This document shows positions 6,302 through 49,582 of a stretch of DNA of 52,248 bases, in pieces. Source of the DNA: Prolixibacteraceae bacterium (GTDB lineage: Bacteria > Bacteroidota > Bacteroidia > Bacteroidales > Prolixibacteraceae). The notes below the pieces were generated by a model. It saw only the letters and a list, made by a program, of their open reading frames with translations, was not told the DNA's origin and made no database searches. The stretch spans positions 1 to 52,248 of the forward strand of contig WTWZ01000019.1 of the NCBI GenBank assembly GCA_009773765.1. Direction: 5' to 3'. The number at the start of each line of letters is the position of its first letter. Within the stretch, counting starts at the first letter, position 1. Made by a program: the position numbers and the translations under genes.

Positions 6302-7313
6302 TTGTATGTTTGTGGCATGTTTATAAAAGTCATACCTAAAATCGACCGCAACACTGGCAAGGCGTACAACTATTACCAGTTATGCGAAAGCTACCGCCTT
6401 GGCGGTAAAGTGCGGCACCGCAGCATCCTGTCGCTTGGCAACCTGATTGAACTATCAGACAATAAGGACTTTAAGCTACTTGCCGACCGTATTGAGCAAC
6501 TTGTTTGCGGCAACCTGCCACTGTACCCAACACCGCCTGTGGTGGAAGCCCTGGCGCACAGGTTCTATAACCAGATTATTGTGCTTATTTCAGCCGCGCG
6601 GTCCACCCGGCCTCGGAACATGCCACGGTTGACTGGCTGAACGATAACAGTGCACTGTGCGAACTGATGGGAATGGAAGCCCCGTTGGTAAACCGCCATC
6701 AGTTGTATGCCACCAGCCGTTTGCTCTATAACAACAAGGAAAAAAGGCAACAAGTATGGCATGGAAAAGGGCAGTTCCTGCTTCCCGGAAAGAAGAAGGG
6801 GTTTATTTCCTGAGAACCTCCGAAAAAGACATCAACGAAGTAACGTTCTGGAACATCTACAATACCATCCGCGAAATAGAGGCCTCGTTCCGCATCCTGA
6901 AAACCGACCTCGAAATACGCCTTGTTTTCCATAAAACCGACGAAAACACGATGGCACACCTGTTCCTTGCCGTACTGGCATACCAACTGGTAAGTACCAT
7001 CCGATACCGTTTAAAGGCAAAAGGGATACACTACGACTGGTCGCACATCGTCAGGATTATGAACACGCAGAAAGCTGCAACCGTTACCATGCAGGACAAA
7101 AACGACCGGAAAATATACATCCGTAAATGCAGTAAACCCGAAACCAAAGCAAGTGTTTATTTCAATAAAGAAGTAAGTGAAATTTACGATGCCCTGGGGT
7201 ATAAATACCAACCCTGGATACGAAAATCCCTGCCTGTTCGGCAGACAGGCGTGTTACCCGAAAAGCAATCCCGAAAAACGGTTGATACTGATTGTTTGGA
7301 AATTACAAGTTAG
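6302..7313 (+). pseudogene. IS1634-family transposase, internally deleted and frameshifted
   Basis: The N-terminal part (from 6302; FIKVIPKIDRNTGKAYNYY, SYRLGGKVRHRSILSLGNL) shifts frame near 6590-6600. It continues in another frame as TVDWLNDNSALCELMGMEAP through YATSRLLYNNKEK (to about 6745), then resumes in the third frame (6756-7313). That last part holds YFLRTSEKD, the YNTIREIEASFRILKTDL segment with the catalytic Glu/Lys region, and IVRIMNTQKAATVTMQ. The middle, which should carry the first two acidic catalytic residues, is largely missing. No active enzyme can be made. Confidence 0.85.
7231..7250. repeat. Short GC-rich palindromic repeat inside the transposase remnant
   Basis: TGCCTGTTCGGCAGACAGGC is an imperfect palindrome encoding PVRQTG in the remnant's frame. 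Repeats of this composition are scattered in Bacteroidota genomes; here it appears inserted in the C-terminal tail of the dead transposase. Confidence 0.45.
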
Positions 7314-40288: not shown

Positions 40289-41320
40289 TTAATACTTCCA
40301 TCGTTTTGCCAAGGCCACCAGCGACAGCATAACCGGTACTTCAACCAAAACTCCGACAACCGTAACCAAAGCTGCCGGCGATTGAAGTCCAAACAAGGCA
40401 ATTGCCACTGCTACAGCAAGTTCGAAAAAGTTACTGGCGCCAATCATCGCGGCTGGCGAACAAATAGTGTAGGGAAGTTTTAATTTCCTACCACCAATCC
40501 AGGTAATAAAAAATATAAAATAGGTTTGAATGACCAGAGGAATTGCTATCAATAAAATAATCAGCGGGTTTTGGGTAATATTTGTTCCCTGGAAAGCAAA
40601 AAGCAGAATCAGTGTAACCAGAAGTGCAAAAATGGAAACAGGTTTAAATTTTGGAAGGAAACTGTTTTTAAACCACTCCTCCCCTCTTTTCCCAACCAGA
40701 ATTTTATGGGTGAAATAACCGGCAGCAAGCGGTACAACTACAAAAATAACTACGCTCGCTACCAATGTATTGTATGGAATTTCAATGTTTGTTATTCCGA
40801 GCAATAAACCTACGATGGGGACAAAGGCAACCAAAATTATCAGGTCGTTAACCGAAACCTGTACCAGTGTATAGTTGGGGTCGCCATCGGTGAGGTAACT
40901 CCACACAAAAACCATAGCAGTGCAGGGCGCAGCGCCGAGTAAAATAGCGCCTGCAATGTATTCTCCGGCCAAATCGGGAGAAATAAATGCGGAATAAATT
41001 TTCGAAAAGAAAATCCAGGCAAAAAACGCCATAGTGAACGGTTTTATCAACCAGTTAACCACCACAGTGAGTATTAAACCTTTCGGTCGTTTTCGCACCT
41101 CTTTCAGTCTCGAAAAATCAATCTGAAGCATCATTGGGTAAATCATCAGCCACACCAGAATGGCCACCGGAATGTTCACCCTGTATATTTCAAGGTCGCT
41201 AACCAACCGGATTTTATCGCCTGCAATATGGCCAATTGCAATGCCTGCTGCAATACAAAGCGCCACCCAAAGTGTTAGGTATTTTTCAAAAAATCCGATC
41301 TGTTTTTTTTGTTTATTCAT
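40289..41320 (-). CDS. acr3: Arsenite efflux permease Acr3
   Basis: A 343-residue member of the BART superfamily with about 10 membrane segments. The conserved Cys133 lies in [20 protein letters not shown], and [18 protein letters not shown] and [17 protein letters not shown] are also typical of Acr3. It exports arsenite produced by ArsC. It is the last gene of arsR/arsC-hgcA-hgcB-acr3; its start codon is 1 bp beyond the hgcB stop, so translation is probably coupled. Confidence 0.95.
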
Positions 41321-41321
41321 A

Positions 41322-41621
41322 TCAGCAACAATTAGTTTCGTTTTTTTTAGTTCCGGGGCAGTTGCACGAAGGCACTGAATTAGTCAGGATTCCGTTTAAA
41401 ATTCCGGCAGCGCAGCCAACACCCGATTTTACGGTGATAGCTCCAAACTGGCAATTCAATGCACAGGCGCCACATTCCATGCAGTCATCAATATCAACTA
41501 TTTGTGCTTTTCTGTTTTTCATTTCAAAAACTGCATGTGGGCATACCATGGTGCATAATCCGCATCCGGTACACAAACCGCTGTCAAGTTCAAGGGTGAC
41601 AGTATTTTTCAGGTATTGCAT
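41322..41621 (-). CDS. hgcB: HgcB, 2[4Fe-4S] ferredoxin of mercury methylation
   Basis: The start at 41621 ([13 protein letters not shown]) follows the hgcA stop by 5 bp; a longer frame to 41702 overlaps hgcA and is rejected. The 99-residue protein has two CxxCxxCxxxC clusters: Cys17/20/23/27 and Cys47/50/53/57, the latter as the family-specific [11 protein letters not shown]. It also has an extra Cys70 (GVGCAAG) and the terminal vicinal pair Cys98-Cys99 (NETNCC stop). The lone Cys and C-terminal CC distinguish HgcB from ordinary ferredoxins; they are thought to bind Hg(II). HgcB re-reduces the corrinoid of HgcA. Confidence 0.95.
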
Positions 41622-41626
41622 GGTTT

Positions 41627-42655
41627 TCACATCCTTAATTTTGAAATGATGAATAGTATCAAACCAACAGCAACAAAGAAAATCTGAAATGGTATCACCC
41701 ATATCATTTCCTTTTTTACCCCTGAAAGCGACGTATAGGTTGAAGATCCTGTAAAATTCAAAGTTACAAACGAAGCCACACTCAGGCTGATTAATACCAT
41801 CGCAATTCTTTCAGCCAAATTGACTTCAAAAAACATATTTATAAATCCGATAACTACCAAACCCCAAAACGCACCTTTCAACGAAAAGGCCCTGAAAGGA
41901 ATTACCGGCAACAACAATGGGGCAATCACTATTCCAGCCAGATATGCACCAAGCACATTGATTAGCGGAAATGAACAGGTTTCAATCATTTTTTGAAACA
42001 GAAACCCGGAATTGTCGATGCCTGAAACTACAAACAGGATAAAAAGTGCAAGCAGTAATTTAAATTTACCATACATGAAATCGACAGGAATGAGTTTTGC
42101 ACGTTCATATATGGGAAAAGTAATTTTTCGCATTTCGGGTGTTGCTTTGTAACCTGCATTTACAAACTTCCTGATATCCCTGGCTTGAACCGGGCCGAAA
42201 ATCACCCTGAATCCGGTCTGTTCTTTTACTTTGTGTGCTGCTACTCCAACAGCTCCCAACTGGGGAACGATAATTCTCCGATGCTGTACAATGTTTTCGA
42301 GCGCGTTTTTTTTAATGCTCTTCACAAGATTGTCCGTTCCAAAAGTTCCTTTTCCCGCTGCACACCAAACATTTACGCCCTTCGTATCGATAACAAGAAC
42401 CCAGGCATTTATCGACTCCAAATTTTTACGCAGGGTATCGAATGACAATTTGTAATTTGCCGTAACTAACACATCAGACTCACAACGGGGCTCCCCAACT
42501 TTGTACAAACCCGGTACAACTGTGTAATGATTACGGCCAATTCCCCAACGTACCTTAATTGCACCCAGGTAATCAGAAAAATTTAACTGTGTCGAAACCA
42601 CAGGAATATCATATACAACAGGTCTTAGCGAGCCAATATCAACTGAGAAAGCCAT
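41627..42655 (-). CDS. hgcA: HgcA, corrinoid-dependent mercury methyltransferase
   Basis: A 342-residue protein. The cytoplasmic corrinoid domain (about 1-190) carries the diagnostic cap-helix motif NVWCAAGKGTFGT at 95-107, whose Cys98 is the lower-axial ligand to cobalt in HgcA. VPGLYKVGEP and VLVTANYKLSFD precede it as in known HgcA. The C-terminal domain has five membrane helices (about 197-213, 230-253, 260-276, 283-303, 317-338) and the conserved FTGSSTYTSLSGVKKE. It transfers a methyl group from methylcorrinoid to Hg(II), giving methylmercury. It starts 1 bp after the arsC stop and is followed by hgcB after 5 bp. Both family-defining features are intact. Activity is inferred, not shown. 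Confidence 0.96.
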   Translation of the reverse strand: MAFSVDIGSLRPVVYDIPVVSTQLNFSDYLGAIKVRWGIGRNHYTVVPGLYKVGEPRCESDVLVTANYKLSFDTLRKNLESINAWVLVIDTKGVNVWCAAGKGTFGTDNLVKSIKKNALENIVQHRRIIVPQLGAVGVAAHKVKEQTGFRVIFGPVQARDIRKFVNAGYKATPEMRKITFPIYERAKLIPVDFMYGKFKLLLALFILFVVSGIDNSGFLFQKMIETCSFPLINVLGAYLAGIVIAPLLLPVIPFRAFSLKGAFWGLVVIGFINMFFEVNLAERIAMVLISLSVASFVTLNFTGSSTYTSLSGVKKEMIWVIPFQIFFVAVGLILFIISKLRM

Positions 42656-42656
42656 T

Positions 42657-43079
42657 TTATTCCTTTAGTTCTGATAAATAAAATTTCCAAAAACCTTCTT
42701 TTATCTCCTCTCTTACACGATAATATTCACTTTCAATAAATTCAGGAGTTCCAACTGCATGAGATGGATCGTCAAAACCAATATGTAACCTGTGTTCCAC
42801 TTTCCCTAAGAAAGCCGGGCAATTTTCGTTGGCGCCGCCGCAAACAGTTATCACATAATCCCACTCATCTCCGAGATATTTATCCACTTGATCAGAAGTA
42901 TGGTGACTGATGTCGATACCTGCTTCTTTCATTACTTCCACCGCTTTGTGGTTGAGTTTTCCCGATGCTTCGGTTCCGGCTGAACAAACCGTGAGTTTTG
43001 GGCCGAACGACTGTAAAAAACCATGTGCCATTTGGCTGCGGCAACTATTTCCTGTACAAAGAATTAATACTTTCATCAT
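42657..43079 (-). CDS. arsC: Thioredoxin-coupled arsenate reductase (LMW-PTP type)
   Basis: The 140-residue protein keeps the complete catalytic set: P-loop CTGNSCRS with Cys8 and Arg14, second Cys13, redox Cys80 and Cys87 (VCGGANENC), and general acid in GFDDP. This matches the pI258-type ArsC family that reduces arsenate to arsenite. It is followed directly by hgcA (1-bp gap). It is a useful intact comparison for the degenerate homologue at 15591-16019. Confidence 0.94.
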   Translation of the reverse strand: MMKVLILCTGNSCRSQMAHGFLQSFGPKLTVCSAGTEASGKLNHKAVEVMKEAGIDISHHTSDQVDKYLGDEWDYVITVCGGANENCPAFLGKVEHRLHIGFDDPSHAVGTPEFIESEYYRVREEIKEGFWKFYLSELKE

Positions 43080-43248
43080 ATAAACTGTTAAATTGACAAA
43101 CCTGTTAAATTGCTGAATATTATTTCATTTCAAATAAGGTTAATAAGGTAATGTATCTCATTATAAATCAGTGCTACTAAGGTTGGAAAACGGGAATTAA
43201 TGTTTTTTTCTAAAAGCCATTTTCTTTGTATTTTATTTATTAATTCAT

Positions 43249-43288
43249 GCATTGTTGCATTCCCGCATTCATGCATTCTCGCATTATT
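43249..43288. repeat. Five-unit 8-bp tandem repeat GCATTnnn
   Basis: GCATT begins at 43249, 43257, 43265, 43273 and 43281, an exact 8-bp period with variable last three bases. The last unit overlaps the arsR stop codon (43284-43286). It lies in the gap between arsR and arsC. It may be a slippage-prone tract; no function is known. Confidence 0.65.
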
Positions 43289-43622
43289 CCCCGCATCCAT
43301 AACCATCCCCCGGCTGTATTTCTTCCATAAAATGGCAAAGCAACTCCTTCATCTCCCTTATTCTTACCGGATCAAGACAGTATTTTGTTTTCACTCCTTC
43401 AATATGGCCTTGTATCAATCCGGCATTTTTAAGTTCTTTTAAATGCTGGTTTACTGTTGTTCGTCCCAATGGTAATTCATCGGAAATATCGCCGGTTATG
43501 CAATTCCTGGTCTGACTTAAAAATTGTAAAATCTGAAGACGCGCCGGATGTCCAAGGGTTTTAAACAGTTCCGCCTTATCGGCAAGTCCTTTGTCGAAGA
43601 GTTCTGTTTTTGATTGTACCAT
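43284..43622 (-). CDS. arsR: ArsR-family metalloregulator
   Basis: A 112-residue winged-helix repressor: LFKTLGHPARLQILQFLSQ (about 19-37), ELPLGRTTVNQHLKELKNAG (recognition helix, 49-68) and GLIQGHIEGVKTKYCL (wing). The usual ELCVC metal motif is replaced by NCITGDIS (Cys41); other Cys are at 82, 96 and 110 (GYGCGE end). These could form a different As(III) or Hg(II) thiolate site. It precedes arsC-hgcA-hgcB-acr3 with a 204-bp gap that lacks a clear promoter or terminator, so one transcript is likely. Confidence 0.93.
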   Translation of the reverse strand: MVQSKTELFDKGLADKAELFKTLGHPARLQILQFLSQTRNCITGDISDELPLGRTTVNQHLKELKNAGLIQGHIEGVKTKYCLDPVRIREMKELLCHFMEEIQPGDGYGCGE

Positions 43623-43639: not shown

Positions 43640-43677
43640 CAAATATACGTTATATATTAATTCGACGTATAAATACG
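43640..43677 (-). promoter_or_regulatory. arsR promoter with candidate ArsR operator
   Basis: On the minus strand TATATTTG (complement of 43640-43647) is a -7 box 18 bp before the arsR start. Upstream, CGTATTTATACG (complement of 43666-43677) is a palindrome with 5-bp arms at the -33 position, and CGTAT recurs beside the -7 box. An ArsR dimer bound here would block RNA polymerase. Confidence 0.55.
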
Positions 43678-43826
43678 ACATGATATTTATATAAAATTTC
43701 ATTTATTTTGAATATTATTAATTCATATAAAAAGTGGAATCTAAAAAACGTAGCATTCTGAAAGCTATTTCCTTAAAAAATTGTGTTTTGCCCAAAAACC
43801 TTTAGTTTTAGTAAAAATTTAAATTG

Positions 43827-44777
43827 ATGCTAAAAATTGCTTTGGTTGTATCCATGCTCTTTCAACTTGGGGCAGCGGTGTTCGCGATAACATTAATCCG
43901 CAGGACCCGGTATAACATTTCATGGGTATTAATTTCGGCCGGACTGGTACTTATGGCCATCCGCCGGTTATTCGATTTTTCAACGCTTTTCTGGGAATCC
44001 AATTTGTTTCAGAGAGAAGAAATTAATGCCTGGATTGGTGTATTAATTTCTGTTTTTATATTCGCCGGGGTAATATTTATCAGGAAAATATTCAACCTTC
44101 AGGATCAGGTGGAAAAGCTCCGGCAGGAAAGTGAGCAAAATGTACTTTCTGCAATCATCAACACCGAAGAAATTGAAAGACAAGCATTTGCACGAGAACT
44201 TCATGATGGGCTCGGGCCTGTTTTATCGTCAATTAAAATGATACTGAGTGCCATTAACACCGAAACCTTAACCCCTTTTAACCGCGAGATTATCAAAAAG
44301 GCATTTAACGCATCCAACAACTCGGTGACAGCTTTAAAAGAAATTGCCAACAATTTAAGCCCTCATCTTTTAAAAAATTATGGCCTCGAAAAAGCAATTG
44401 AAACGCTTGCCCGGCAGTTATTTTCGCCAACGGGCATTAAATTCGTGTTAAATTTGAATTTCGATGAAAATCGACTTTCAAAAGAGATGGAAATCAGTTG
44501 TTACCGGATTGTTTCTGAGTTGATAAACAACAGCATCAAACATGCAAATCCTTCGGTAGTCAATCTCGAAATAAATGAAACTGACCGGTTTCTGACCATT
44601 AAATACAATGATAATGGCTGCGGGTTTGATAATTTCCAAATTGATAAAAACAGTAAAATCCCGGGAATGGGATTTAGTAACATTATTTCACGGACCAAAT
44701 CGCTGAATGGGATGTACTACATTCAAACCTCGCCAGGCAATGGTTTTTCCGTTGAATTTTATTTTCCTCTAAAATGA
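43827..44777 (+). CDS. Sensor histidine kinase (HisKA_3 type)
   Basis: The start at 43827 (ATG) is used. The 316-residue protein has three N-terminal membrane segments (about 1-25, 33-48, 68-88), a short coiled coil, the HisKA_3 dimerisation motif EEIERQAFARELHDGLGPVL with phospho-acceptor His126, and a HATPase domain (ELINNSIKHANP, YNDNGCGFDNF, GMGFSNIISR). There is almost no extracytoplasmic loop, so it may sense a membrane or intracellular signal. Its stop overlaps the response-regulator start (ATGA). Its target may be the porin and ABC genes downstream; this is inferred. Confidence 0.92.
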   Translation: MLKIALVVSMLFQLGAAVFAITLIRRTRYNISWVLISAGLVLMAIRRLFDFSTLFWESNLFQREEINAWIGVLISVFIFAGVIFIRKIFNLQDQVEKLRQESEQNVLSAIINTEEIERQAFARELHDGLGPVLSSIKMILSAINTETLTPFNREIIKKAFNASNNSVTALKEIANNLSPHLLKNYGLEKAIETLARQLFSPTGIKFVLNLNFDENRLSKEMEISCYRIVSELINNSIKHANPSVVNLEINETDRFLTIKYNDNGCGFDNFQIDKNSKIPGMGFSNIISRTKSLNGMYYIQTSPGNGFSVEFYFPLK

Positions 44778-45415
44778 AAAAAATTTCCGTTTATCTGGTT
44801 GATGATCACTCGCTTTTCAGGGAAGGCTTAAAAATGTTGCTTTCAAACCTCGATTATATTGACAAGATTTATGAAGCCGAAAATGGCCGGCAATTTATCG
44901 ATGGGCTTCGAAAAAATTATGTCGATATTGCACTGATTGATATTGAAATGCCTTTAATGAACGGTATTCAGGCAGCGCAACAAGCTAAGATTATTGTACC
45001 GGGAATAAAACTTATTGCATTATCACTTTATTCAGATGAAAACTATTATCTAAGTATGATTGAAGCAGGGGCCTGTGGTTTTCTGCTTAAAAACTCCAAT
45101 TTTCATGAGGTTGAAAAAGCCATTAAGGATGTGTACGAGGATAAAAGTTACATTTCAATTGAGATTTTAAACAACATTTTAAAACACCCGCAAAAACCCG
45201 TATCCAACAGCAATATTGAGGAACTTACTGAACGCGAAATAGAAATACTTTTGCTGATTTGCAAGGGATTAACAAATAATGAAATAGCCGATCGGTTAAT
45301 TTTAAGCAAACGTACCGTTGATAAACACCGTGAAAACCTGCTTCTGAAAACACAGTCGAAAAACACCGCCAACCTTGTGGTTTACGCCATAAAAAGTGGC
45401 TATTTACAGATTTAA
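44774..45415 (+). CDS. NarL-family response regulator
   Basis: The 213-residue protein has a receiver domain (acidic pocket VDDHS at 9-13, phospho-acceptor Asp56 in ALIDIEMP, Lys106 in FLLKNS) and a C-terminal LuxR-type HTH (LTEREIEILLLICKGLTNNE, then KRTVDKHRENLL). It overlaps the kinase gene by 4 bp. It lies upstream of the porin-pst genes on the same strand after a gap of 123 bp. Confidence 0.94.
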   Translation: MKKISVYLVDDHSLFREGLKMLLSNLDYIDKIYEAENGRQFIDGLRKNYVDIALIDIEMPLMNGIQAAQQAKIIVPGIKLIALSLYSDENYYLSMIEAGACGFLLKNSNFHEVEKAIKDVYEDKSYISIEILNNILKHPQKPVSNSNIEELTEREIEILLLICKGLTNNEIADRLILSKRTVDKHRENLLLKTQSKNTANLVVYAIKSGYLQI

Positions 45416-45538
45416 TCAGATTAAATTTATGCCCACTAAGTATAAAGACGTACAATCAAGCTACGCTTTTATACTGTTTTCAATGTGCCTTGTTAAAGAT
45501 ATTTTTGCCCAGTAATTTTTTAACAGGATAGGATTTTT

Positions 45539-46861
45539 ATGTCAGGAAAAAACATCTTTAAAAAGCAAAACAACGTATTTGCCCTTATTTCAAAAGTGGC
45601 TTTTTTATTTGTTCTGTTTCAAACAGTATTCGCCACAAATATAAAAGCGCAGTTTAAAATCGATGCCGAGCTCCGCAACCGTTCCGAATTTCGCGATGGT
45701 TATGCCAAACTTTCTTCCCGGGGATCAACACCTGCATTTTTGGTTACCCAGCGTACCAGGGTAGTTTTCAGCTACGAATCAGAAGATTTAAAAATCAAAT
45801 TTACCCCGCAGGATGTTCGCATTTGGGGCGACGACAGCAAAATTACCCTTGCCGGTAGCAACGGTAACAATGCATCTATAGATCTTTTCGAAGGATTTGC
45901 AGACTTTAAAATCGGTAAAAATAGCTGGCTTGCAGTTGGAAGGCAGCAATTGGTTTACGACAATCAAAGTATTTTATCGAATGCAAACTGGAACCAAAAT
46001 GGTATAAGTTCAGATGCAGTATTACTGAAACTTAAACTGAGCGGATGGAATATACATATTGCCGGATCGTGGAATACCGCGCAGCAGGCTGCAACCGACA
46101 ACTTCTACCCAACCGACAGGTATAAAAGCATAAATTTTTTGTGGATCAACCGGCAATTCAACGGCCATTTTAAACTGTCGTTTATTCATGTAGCAGCCGG
46201 CCGAACCCAAACCGACACAACCAATAACATCAATTTCAGGCAAACTACCGGTATTTATACAACCTACAAAAACGGTAACTTTTCGTTTTGGGGAGATGCC
46301 TATTATCAGTTCGGGAAAAGCCAGACAGGCAAAAAAGCAAGCGCCATGCTTTTGGATGTTGAAGCAGGGTACAAATTAAAAAGTTTTACCCCGGGAATTG
46401 GGTTCAGCTATATTTCAGGCAACAGTAAAACTGGCAACAGTATGACAACAGATCATTTATATGAACCTATTTACCGTTCAAGGCATGCTTTTAATGGTTT
46501 TATCGATTATTATACTAATTACTCAAAACAAACTGCAAATGGTGGATTAGCCGATTTTTATGGTTTCCTTGATTTCGTCCCATCCAAAACAGTAAGCATT
46601 CGGAATAAACTTCACTTCTTTCAACTGGCAGAAACAAATCCCGGCACGCCAACCAATAAAAACCTTGGAGTTGAAAATGATTTGGTAGTCAAATTCAAAT
46701 TTTCAGAATGGGGACAACTTGAAGGCGGATATTTGTTTTATGTGCCAACATCAACCTTAAAAACAATTCAAAATGTACCTAACGGAAAATTCTCACAATT
46801 TGTATATTTGCAACTTACAATTGCCCCTATACTCTTTAAAAACGAACTAAAGAAAATGTAA
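45539..46861 (+). CDS. Outer-membrane porin of the alginate-export type
   Basis: A 440-residue protein with an N-terminal signal peptide (cleavage after NIKAQ, about residue 38) and a beta-barrel rich in alternating aromatic strands. FKIDAELRNRSEFRDGY, VTQRTRVVFSYESEDLKIKF, and WLAVGRQQLVYDNQSIL with GISSDAVLL are typical of the alginate_exp family in Bacteroidota. It precedes the ABC importer genes by 18 bp and is probably the outer-membrane channel for the same solute. An anion such as phosphate is likely but not proven. Confidence 0.8.
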   Translation: MSGKNIFKKQNNVFALISKVAFLFVLFQTVFATNIKAQFKIDAELRNRSEFRDGYAKLSSRGSTPAFLVTQRTRVVFSYESEDLKIKFTPQDVRIWGDDSKITLAGSNGNNASIDLFEGFADFKIGKNSWLAVGRQQLVYDNQSILSNANWNQNGISSDAVLLKLKLSGWNIHIAGSWNTAQQAATDNFYPTDRYKSINFLWINRQFNGHFKLSFIHVAAGRTQTDTTNNINFRQTTGIYTTYKNGNFSFWGDAYYQFGKSQTGKKASAMLLDVEAGYKLKSFTPGIGFSYISGNSKTGNSMTTDHLYEPIYRSRHAFNGFIDYYTNYSKQTANGGLADFYGFLDFVPSKTVSIRNKLHFFQLAETNPGTPTNKNLGVENDLVVKFKFSEWGQLEGGYLFYVPTSTLKTIQNVPNGKFSQFVYLQLTIAPILFKNELKKM

Positions 46862-46879
46862 TTATTCAATTTTATAAAT

Positions 46880-47818
46880 ATGAAAACAAAAAGTCTTTTA
46901 TTTATTCTGGCTTTGGCCATCATTTTTTCAGCTTGTTCTTCACGAAAGAAAAAAGAGCAAACTATAAGCCTTTCCGGGGCTTTTGCGCTTTATCCAATGG
47001 TTATTAAATGGAGCGATGAATACAAAAAAGAACACCCTGATGTCCGGTTTAATATTTCTGCCGGAGGAGCCGGAAAAGGTGTTGCCGATGCACTTTCGGG
47101 CACCATTGATTTAGGCATGTTATCGCGCCAGATTGAACAACAGGAAATCGACAACGGGATTTGGTGGGTATCGGTTACAAAAGATGCGGTAATCCCCACC
47201 ATCAATTCAGGCAATCCGCTTTTTGAAACTTTAAAAAAACGAGGGCTTACACGTGATGAGTTCAGGAAGATATTTATTACGGGAGAAATAACAAACTGGA
47301 ATCAGTTACCGGGTGTGGGAACAGACCAGGTTATCAATGTTTTTACCCGTTCTGACGCCTGCGGCGCTGCAGCAACCTGGGCTGAATACCTCGGGGGTAA
47401 ACAGGAAGATTTGTTAGGTACTGGTGTTTTTGGCGATCCCGGACTGGCTGATGCGGTCGTAAAAGATATAAATGGAGTGGGTTATAACAATACCATTTAT
47501 TTATATGATAATGAAACCGGCAACAAAAACAAGGGAATTGAAGCAATTCCCATCGATATAAATGAAAATGGGGTTGTTGATGCAGAAGAAGCAAACTATG
47601 ATAAACTCGGCCAGATTCTGGATGCTATTGCTGCCGGAAAATTCCCGTCGCCACCTGCACGCGATCTGTATTTGGTATCGAAAGGCAAACCGCAAAAACA
47701 GGCCACCCTTGATTTTTTGAAATGGGTAATTACCAAAGGACAGGCTTTTGTGCAGGAAGCCGGTTATGTGCCGCTAAATATTTCTACCCTTGACGAACAG
47801 CTATCTAAACTTAATTAG
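46880..47818 (+). CDS. PstS-like substrate-binding lipoprotein
   Basis: A 312-residue lipoprotein (MKTKSLLFILALAIIFSAC, lipid at Cys19). The type II binding-protein fold is shown by SGAFALYPMVIKWSDEYKK, SAGGAGKGVADALSGTIDLG and VINVFTRSDACGAAATWAEY. The phosphate contacts of classical PstS are altered: the R..SGT loop reads RSDACGAA, and ATF reads ALY. An EF-hand-like loop DINENGVVDAEE (226-237) is present. From memory, this binding-protein subgroup commonly carries it. Ligand could be phosphate or another oxyanion. Confidence 0.85.
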   Translation: MKTKSLLFILALAIIFSACSSRKKKEQTISLSGAFALYPMVIKWSDEYKKEHPDVRFNISAGGAGKGVADALSGTIDLGMLSRQIEQQEIDNGIWWVSVTKDAVIPTINSGNPLFETLKKRGLTRDEFRKIFITGEITNWNQLPGVGTDQVINVFTRSDACGAAATWAEYLGGKQEDLLGTGVFGDPGLADAVVKDINGVGYNNTIYLYDNETGNKNKGIEAIPIDINENGVVDAEEANYDKLGQILDAIAAGKFPSPPARDLYLVSKGKPQKQATLDFLKWVITKGQAFVQEAGYVPLNISTLDEQLSKLN

Positions 47819-47846
47819 TCCTGATCAATCTTAAATTGAACAGAAA

Positions 47847-48731
47847 ATGGACAGAAAAAGAAGATTGATCGACACGGTAGTAGGTATCTGGATGCGGGGA
47901 GGATTGTATTTATTGCTGTCCATACCTATACTAATTGCTGTTGGAATCTACTGGAAAGCAGCTCCCTTGCTTGAAAGCCATTCGCTGAAAGATCTGCTTT
48001 TTTCTGGTAAATGGTTTCCGATGAGAGGTGAATTTGGTTTTTTGCCTTTTATTTACAGTTCGGCTTATGTCACTATTTTATCCTTCCTGTTCTCAGGGCC
48101 GCTATGTTTATTTGCAGCAATTTACCTTACACAGTTTGGGAAAAGGGGTTTGCTGAATATTATGCTTCCCGTGATTGATATTCTTGCCGGGATACCATCG
48201 GTGGTTTATGGCGTTTGGGGCATACTGGTAATTGTTCCGGCGGTCTCAGGTTTGGCTGGCTTTTTTGGAACAACTAGTTCGGGATACAGCCTTTTGGCCG
48301 GAAGTATTGTGCTTGCAGTAATGTGTATCCCTTATATTCTGAACATGCTTATTGAAGTTTTCAACACCATTCCGGTTGGGATGAAAGAAGCCTCGCTTTC
48401 GCTGGGGGCCACACATTGGGAAATGGTAAAACACGTAATTATTAAAAGGGGGTTTCCGGGAATTATTTCGGCATTCGGGCTGGGAATTGCCAAAGCTTTT
48501 GGAGAAACCATTGCAGTTTTAATGGTGGTTGGCAATACACTCGAAATTTCGCTTTCGCCCTTTAAACCGGGCTATCCGCTGCCTTCATTAATTGCCAATA
48601 ATTATGGCGAAATGATGTCGATCCCCGATTATGACTCGGCATTAATGTTCTCCGCATTATTGCTGTTTGTTATAATTCTGGTGATTAACCTGTTTTTCAG
48701 GTATTTTATTCATAAAGCTGAAAAATCATGA
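47847..48731 (+). CDS. pstC: PstC-like ABC permease
   Basis: A 294-residue inner-membrane permease with six segments: an N-terminal helix (about 17-34), then the PstC domain with SAYVTILSFLFSGPLCLFAA and the EAA-like coupling loop GMKEASLSLGATHWEMVKHV. GIAKAFGETIAVLMVVGN is characteristic of PstC. Its stop overlaps the pstA start (ATGA). Confidence 0.92.
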   Translation: MDRKRRLIDTVVGIWMRGGLYLLLSIPILIAVGIYWKAAPLLESHSLKDLLFSGKWFPMRGEFGFLPFIYSSAYVTILSFLFSGPLCLFAAIYLTQFGKRGLLNIMLPVIDILAGIPSVVYGVWGILVIVPAVSGLAGFFGTTSSGYSLLAGSIVLAVMCIPYILNMLIEVFNTIPVGMKEASLSLGATHWEMVKHVIIKRGFPGIISAFGLGIAKAFGETIAVLMVVGNTLEISLSPFKPGYPLPSLIANNYGEMMSIPDYDSALMFSALLLFVIILVINLFFRYFIHKAEKS

Positions 48732-49582
48732 GAAAAATTAAAATTATTGAAGAGTGGATTATTAAGGGGATTTCCTTTCTGGCAGCATATTCTGTTATTT
48801 TCATTTTATTGTATTTACTGTTTGTTATATTTAAAAATGGGATTGGGGCTTTATCTTGGGAAACCGTTTTTAGTATGCCCAAAGGAGGATATTATTTTGG
48901 TGGTGAAGGCGGAATATTAAATGCAATTGTTGGCTCCCTGTATCTTTCAGTTGGGGCAACCTTGCTGGCAATTATAGTTGGGCTTCCTGCTGCATTATTT
49001 ATCAATGTTCAGCTCATCAGGCTAAAACGCACGCAGCATTTAATTCGTTACCTGCTCGATGCACTTTGGGGGATACCGTCGATAGTTTACGGCGCCTTTG
49101 GATTTGCTGTGATGCTGTTTTTCGGACTAAACGCCTCGCTTTTGGCCGGTATTATCACAGTTGCACTGCTTATCACTCCAATTTTGGTCCGTGCTTTTGA
49201 TGAGATTCTTAAAACCATTCCTGTTGAATTGCAGGAAGCTTCTTTCTCTCTGGGTTCAACCCGCTCTGAAACGGCGATGAGGGTCTTATTTAAACAAGGA
49301 TTTGCCGGGTTTATTACAGCTTTGCTTCTAGCTTTCGGCAGGGGAATTGGCGATGCGGCTTCGGTACTTTTCACTGCTGGTTATACCGACAATATTCCTG
49401 TAACCTTGGACGAACCGGTGGCAACATTACCGTTGGCTATTTTCTTCCAGCTCAGTTCACCAATCGAAGAAGTGAGGCAACGCGCCTATGCAGCGGCTGT
49501 TGTGCTTACCATCTTTATTTTAATAATCAGCGTATCGGCACGACTGCTTTCAAAAAGATATTCAAAAAATATTATCAAATGA
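48728..49582 (+). CDS. pstA: PstA-like ABC permease
   Basis: A 284-residue permease with six membrane segments. The coupling loop is PVELQEASFSLGSTRSETAM, followed by LLLAFGRGIGDAASVLFTAG, as in PstA. The first helix covers about 13-35. It overlaps both pstC and the ATPase gene by 4 bp, implying coupled translation of all three. Confidence 0.92.
   Translation: MRKIKIIEEWIIKGISFLAAYSVIFILLYLLFVIFKNGIGALSWETVFSMPKGGYYFGGEGGILNAIVGSLYLSVGATLLAIIVGLPAALFINVQLIRLKRTQHLIRYLLDALWGIPSIVYGAFGFAVMLFFGLNASLLAGIITVALLITPILVRAFDEILKTIPVELQEASFSLGSTRSETAMRVLFKQGFAGFITALLLAFGRGIGDAASVLFTAGYTDNIPVTLDEPVATLPLAIFFQLSSPIEEVRQRAYAAAVVLTIFILIISVSARLLSKRYSKNIIK

Follow-up and report, generated by a model that had tools for sequence, protein, structure and literature searches.

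The 52,248-base contig WTWZ01000019.1 of a Prolixibacteraceae bacterium, analyzed here over its entire length (the window; the genome amounts to 4.27 Mb in 118 contigs), carries the mercury-methylation genes hgcA and hgcB inside an arsenic-resistance (ars) operon, between the arsenate reductase gene arsC and the arsenite permease gene acr3. We consider it rather probable that this is an As(III)-inducible ars operon in which hgcAB, by virtue of this position, adds Hg methylation to the co-expressed functions. The feature is genuine and belongs to a type already known, the co-location of hgcAB with arsenic genes having already been published, including for Prolixibacteraceae. The anatomy described below nevertheless makes a functional link between hgcAB and arsenic more likely than co-location alone did.

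Organization of the operon and identity of its products

Five genes follow one another on the minus strand in the order arsR, arsC, hgcA, hgcB, acr3, each of them where the first-pass annotation had put it. Read directly on the sequence, the junctions measure 204, 1, 5 and 1 bp; the three short ones are the same as those annotated earlier, and the 204-bp arsR-arsC gap was absent from that earlier list. The genes for ArsR, arsenate reductase and arsenite permease are collinear on one strand, which makes the locus an ars operon. Its elements are as follows.

43284..43622, minus strand: arsR, ArsR/SmtB metalloregulator with Cys41, Cys82 and Cys110 (NCBIfam NF033788, 60.5 bits, cut-off 55)
43080..43283, minus strand: 204 bp separating arsR from arsC and containing GAATGC repeats (sequence)
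42657..43079, minus strand: arsC, thioredoxin-type arsenate reductase (best models TIGR02691, 126.4 bits, below the cut-off of 174.3, and PRK13530)
41627..42655, minus strand: hgcA, mercury methylation corrinoid protein (NF040863, 417.4 bits, cut-off 275), with Cys98
41322..41621, minus strand: hgcB, mercury methylation ferredoxin, its start being an ATG within a longer open reading frame (NF040864, 115.7 bits, cut-off 99)
40289..41320, minus strand: acr3, arsenite efflux permease (TIGR00832, 394 bits, cut-off 282.8), the sole ACR3 match of the genome
43635..43650, minus strand: core of a putative ArsR operator, ACGTATATTTGCGTC(A), which overlaps a putative Bacteroidota -7 box TATATTTG (sequence only)
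43666..43677, minus strand: second palindrome CGTATTTATACG, about 15 bp upstream of the putative operator core (from the bases themselves)

Judged by model scores, the hgcA product is a genuine HgcA, as had been annotated: its 417.4 bits stand well over the cut-off of 275, whereas the gamma model of the corrinoid iron-sulfur protein (CFeSP) gives 82.2 bits against a cut-off of 306 and the HgcAB-fusion model also stays far under its own. The protein has a match to PF03599 (CdhD), the domain of the CFeSP family, and no other PF03599 protein is encoded in the host genome. It contains the motif NVWC98AAGK, which we take to be the cap-helix Cys motif of HgcA and whose Cys is present in 85/85 aligned rows. 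The five C-terminal membrane helices annotated earlier were recovered as five hydrophobic segments between residues 200 and 338. Likewise, HgcB ends with the Cys-Cys pair already described, alongside two CX2CX2CX3C motifs, and its gene adjoins hgcA. A search for a residue shift in the HgcA clade of the window returned just two columns satisfying the rule (positions 153 and 227), none of them of note. Although ArsC scores below the NCBIfam cut-offs, arsenate reductases are its best matches, and its Cys 8, 80 and 87 fit the thioredoxin-type ArsC motif.

The arsR promoter and the arsM slot

The window holds one mismatch-free occurrence of the putative operator core motif, in which TATATTTG presumably represents the Bacteroidota -7 element. 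The same motif stands upstream of 17 of the 35 hgc-linked arsR genes (window included) and of 16 of the 24 plain arsR genes, 23-36 bp ahead of the start codon, and its density reaches 3995 per Mb in arsR-upstream stretches versus 19 per Mb across all loci. Palindromes similar to CGTATTTATACG are also found in plain ars promoters. The three ArsR cysteines, each present in 24/24 plain rows and in 34 (Cys41), 33 (Cys82) and 29 (Cys110) of the 35 hgc-linked rows, could bind As(III). Because the ars operon is compact and the palindrome of its arsR promoter is common to the plain ars operons of congeners, As(III) control seems plausible. Induction through ArsR had been proposed earlier for As(III) or Hg(II); the first half of this proposal is plausible, and nothing that we saw supports the second. 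A promoter and terminator scan gave about as many matches as shuffled sequences did. Tandem-like GAATGC repeats at 43257-43286, in the arsR-arsC gap, exceed shuffled-sequence expectation.

The plain arsR-arsC-(arsM)-acr3 operons of congeners (L142-L172) resemble the window operon in gene order, promoter palindrome and ArsR cysteines. They differ from it in having no gene, or arsM, where the window has hgcAB. Among their 31 ACR3 loci, 30 were compared, L167 being without arsC in reach. The arsC-acr3 gap measures -4 to 212 bp in 20/30 and is occupied by arsM in 10/30 (the identity of arsM was checked by NCBIfam on 4 of these 10, and the positions of ArsM over the cut-off and of ACR3 agree for all 10). 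Therefore, hgcAB lies in the slot that arsM often holds in the ars operons of relatives.

Surroundings and histories of hgcAB, arsC and acr3

The genome collection yielded 474 HgcA relatives. Only the 80 best entered the analysis, which biases the set toward close relatives, and five more, counting the window, brought the number of loci to 85. Duplicates (L003, L134, L137, L138 and L139) and a fragment (L140) are omitted from this set, and some loci are shortened by contig ends. Neighbors were counted when arsC ended at most 200 bp upstream of hgcA, when acr3 started at most 1300 bp downstream and when arsR lay within 1600 bp. By this rule arsC was found upstream in 25/85 loci, acr3 downstream in 27/85 and all three genes together in 16/85. 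Fifteen of these 16 either bear a Bacteroidota title or come from the family of the host; the remaining one, L048, is titled Ignavibacteriae. In several loci, the arsC stop overlaps or almost touches the hgcA start. The arsC-hgcA adjacency that the first-pass annotation suggested searching for thus recurs, and the association of hgcA with ars genes is not due to chance. With the window's own genome included, hgcA is found in 1/37 genomes of the genus, in 9/140 of the family (8 over the cut-off and one fragment under it) and in 2/395 genomes sampled from the phylum.

The HgcA of the window belongs to a 17-row clade (support of 100 in the Shimodaira-Hasegawa-like approximate likelihood ratio test) made of Prolixibacteraceae, other Bacteroidota and L006. 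The latter record is titled Peptostreptococcaceae, and its HgcA, ArsC and ACR3 are very near those of the Bacteroidales record L005; it is probably a mislabelled or contaminant contig. In the careful ArsC tree, from which L009, L074, L048, L041 and L036 are omitted for their long branches, the window ArsC clusters (99/97) with the ArsC proteins encoded in plain ars operons of three congeners, the closest being 89% identical. The window ACR3 is closest to a plain ACR3 of a congener (85% identical) and falls in a different deep subfamily from the ACR3s beside the same-clade HgcAs of L133, L004 and L136. By these trees, ArsC and ACR3 are genus stock, and closely related hgcAB pairs adjoin ACR3s of two deep subfamilies. 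A single clade for the ACR3s of the window, L007 and L008 was rejected by the approximately unbiased test (p-AU 9.6e-6). Because of this rejection and of the distinct subfamily of the window ACR3, the phylogenies indicate that repeated pairings of hgcAB with acr3 genes of separate ancestry have occurred at one and the same operon position, through movement of hgcAB or exchange of acr3. That this place is kept in spite of differing acr3 descent points to selection for the association.

We sought a simple empty site via the kinase on the right flank and the GNAT-like protein on the left one; the flank blocks were not side by side in the congener stretches examined. Each is kept in congeners, the kinase-regulator-porin-PstS block in L124 and L125 and the rluA-GNAT pair in L173, L174 and L175. 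Either the entry of hgcAB into a resident operon or the movement of the operon as a unit would fit these flank data. A foreign composition was rejected, the G+C content of operon-gene windows (0.38-0.42) showing no contrast with that of the flanks (0.34-0.43).

Other HgcA loci displayed two further features. A CcdA/ArsG-like permease of about 233 residues was found by phmmer near hgcA in 17/85 loci, often directly before it (for example L003:730-1443, L004:5216-5917, L036:5275-5976 and L061:5273-5968), and some of these loci also hold a short Cys-rich protein. The two copies checked gave weak matches to named families. This permease, which is absent from the window's operon, may be an unrecognised partner of hgcAB. 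Besides, three tandem ArsC-like genes lie upstream of hgcA at L004:3561-4872, in a genome with a second, arsM-acr3 locus elsewhere.

Mercury methylation within an arsenic operon

We propose the following scenario. An hgcAB pair would have been taken up, between arsC and acr3, by an arsenite-inducible resistance operon. ArsR would repress from the palindromes over the -7 region until As(III), presumably on Cys41, Cys82 and Cys110, releases it. ArsC would then reduce arsenate and ACR3 export arsenite, and HgcA and HgcB, made simultaneously with them, would methylate Hg(II). In these families, the methyl group is donated by the methylcorrinoid HgcA and the corrinoid is re-reduced by HgcB. The cell would probably gain a common response to metals and metalloids that seek thiols. 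We thus infer a single transcript, its induction by As(III), Hg methylation and a benefit to the cell, and arsenic may be a switch for methylmercury formation. Several features of the host genome were counted in favor of this scenario. Two PF00809 proteins are encoded, one in a 1245-residue frame that is MetH-sized and would be MetH by its size; no PF03599 protein exists besides HgcA; no MerA reaches its cut-off in this genome (best score 215.7 bits, cut-off 454.45); and its one ACR3 is that of the window.

One could also assume that insertion into, or transfer along with, ars operons is frequent, and that hgcAB has no physiological tie to arsenic and is read from the ars promoter by position. 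This would agree with ArsC and ACR3 being genus stock while hgcA occurs in no congener, and with the 21 of 48 hgcA-positive Bacteroidota genomes examined in which neither arsC nor acr3 lies beside hgcA under the rule as set. However, hgcAB occupies an unchanged position next to acr3 genes that differ in descent, with near-overlapping junctions, and we regard such a passenger origin as unlikely, although a real possibility. The match to PF03599 could suggest a CFeSP-like or other non-methylating paralogue; the model scores led us to reject this reading, the HgcA equivalog score being far above its cut-off and the CFeSP and HgcAB-fusion scores far below theirs, and with Cys98, the membrane domain and an adjoining hgcB present it is very improbable. 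An assembly or binning artefact might be suspected from the 118 contigs and from the lack of hgcA in congeners. It was rejected on account of the genus-conserved blocks on both flanks and the genus-stock arsC and acr3; the gene order also recurs in independent records, and an error of this kind would be extremely surprising.

Another hypothesis is that HgcAB stands in for ArsM, as a corrinoid-dependent methyltransferase acting on As(III)-thiolates or on soft metal(loid)s generally, in an operon for which relatives rely on the SAM-dependent ArsM. The common slot, held by arsM in 10/30 congener operons, supports this idea, and so does the distribution of ArsM over its cut-off in the family, 1/9 hgcA-positive versus 77/131 hgcA-negative genomes (Fisher p 0.011), the host genome having none. 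However, the contrast is weaker when stratified by genus (p 0.058). Among 48 hgcA-positive genomes, nearly all titled Bacteroidota, seven have ArsM over the cut-off, and it is equally rare where hgcAB lies away from arsC and acr3 (4/21) and where it lies beside one of them (3/27). Since these two counts are alike, the scarcity of arsM tracks the presence of hgcAB and not its position, and anaerobic life could be the cause. Moreover, the genome of L004 (G456) has both hgcA and ArsM, ArsM genes also lie near hgcA in L034, L070 and L141, and HgcA presents no notable residue shift. A replacement of ArsM by HgcAB therefore appears improbable. We would be equally surprised if the HgcAB of Bacteroidota were an arsenic-system enzyme, placed in the ArsM slot behind an ArsR operator of the same type, with methylmercury as a by-product; if true, this would answer what HgcAB is for. 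Arsenic methylation under anoxia is proposed, in passages of PMC11653729, to be a warfare strategy, owing to its toxic product.

Several points weigh against our preferred scenario of an As(III)-inducible operon co-expressing Hg methylation. The 204-bp gap between arsR and arsC may contain a second promoter. The core motif was formulated after inspection of the sequences; 18 of the 35 hgc-linked arsR genes are without it as written, some having variants, and 18 of its 51 occurrences fall outside the counted arsR-upstream stretches. Under the rule as set, none of arsR, arsC and acr3 is near hgcA in 45/85 loci, and in some hgcA-positive Bacteroidota, for example Marinilabilia L038 and L045, hgcAB is without all three in the stretch examined. 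As regards gene histories, a single clade for the ArsC of the window, L007 and L008 survives the test (p 0.30), a single clade for all hgc-linked ArsC is rejected marginally (p 0.040), and the grouping of the ACR3s of L007 and L008 gives p 0.0499. The genus-stratified ArsM contrast, and the independence of ArsM from the place of hgcAB, have to be counted on the same side.

A parallel can be drawn with published loci. Passages of McDaniel et al. 2020 (PMC7438021) report that acr3 and arsC flank hgcAB in diverse putative methylators, with ArsR-like genes and arsM nearby, and propose an arsenic-mercury link. Gene families and proximity are alike in the window, and our analysis adds to these passages, figures being outside the comparison, three elements: how the arsM slot is filled in congeners, the operator in common, and a separate history for each gene. 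For Prolixibacteraceae, the passages concerned of PMC10504345 (2023) describe the same co-location of hgcAB with arsenic cycling genes, with hgcA in 7/134 database genomes there versus 9/140 here. In Pseudodesulfovibrio mercurii ND132, ArsR control and an arsenic response of hgcAB have been confirmed (Gionfriddo et al. 2023, as stated in part of PMC10349881), and the ArsR-like control is also recounted in a passage of PMC12953829. From these accounts, ND132 would have in common with the window an ArsR-family regulator of hgcAB and a response to arsenic, and the window differs in having hgcAB between arsC and acr3. A full-text literature search, figures and supplements excluded, met no statement of hgcAB lying in the arsM slot or sharing an ars operator, which is weak evidence of newness. 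With regard to the purpose of HgcAB and to what turns on methylmercury formation, the present operon makes two ideas testable, the induction of methylmercury formation by arsenic in Bacteroidota and the action of HgcAB on arsenic.

Divergent from the ars-hgc operon, positions 43824-49582 encode a histidine kinase, a response regulator, an alginate-export-type porin, PstS and two more Pst-like permease genes. Phosphate import is also an entry route for arsenate. The block from the kinase to PstS/PstC is kept in G012 and G026, without adjoining ars genes of a window-type operon. Finally, two open reading frames at 6302-7313 give, from their translations, the impression of transposase pieces.

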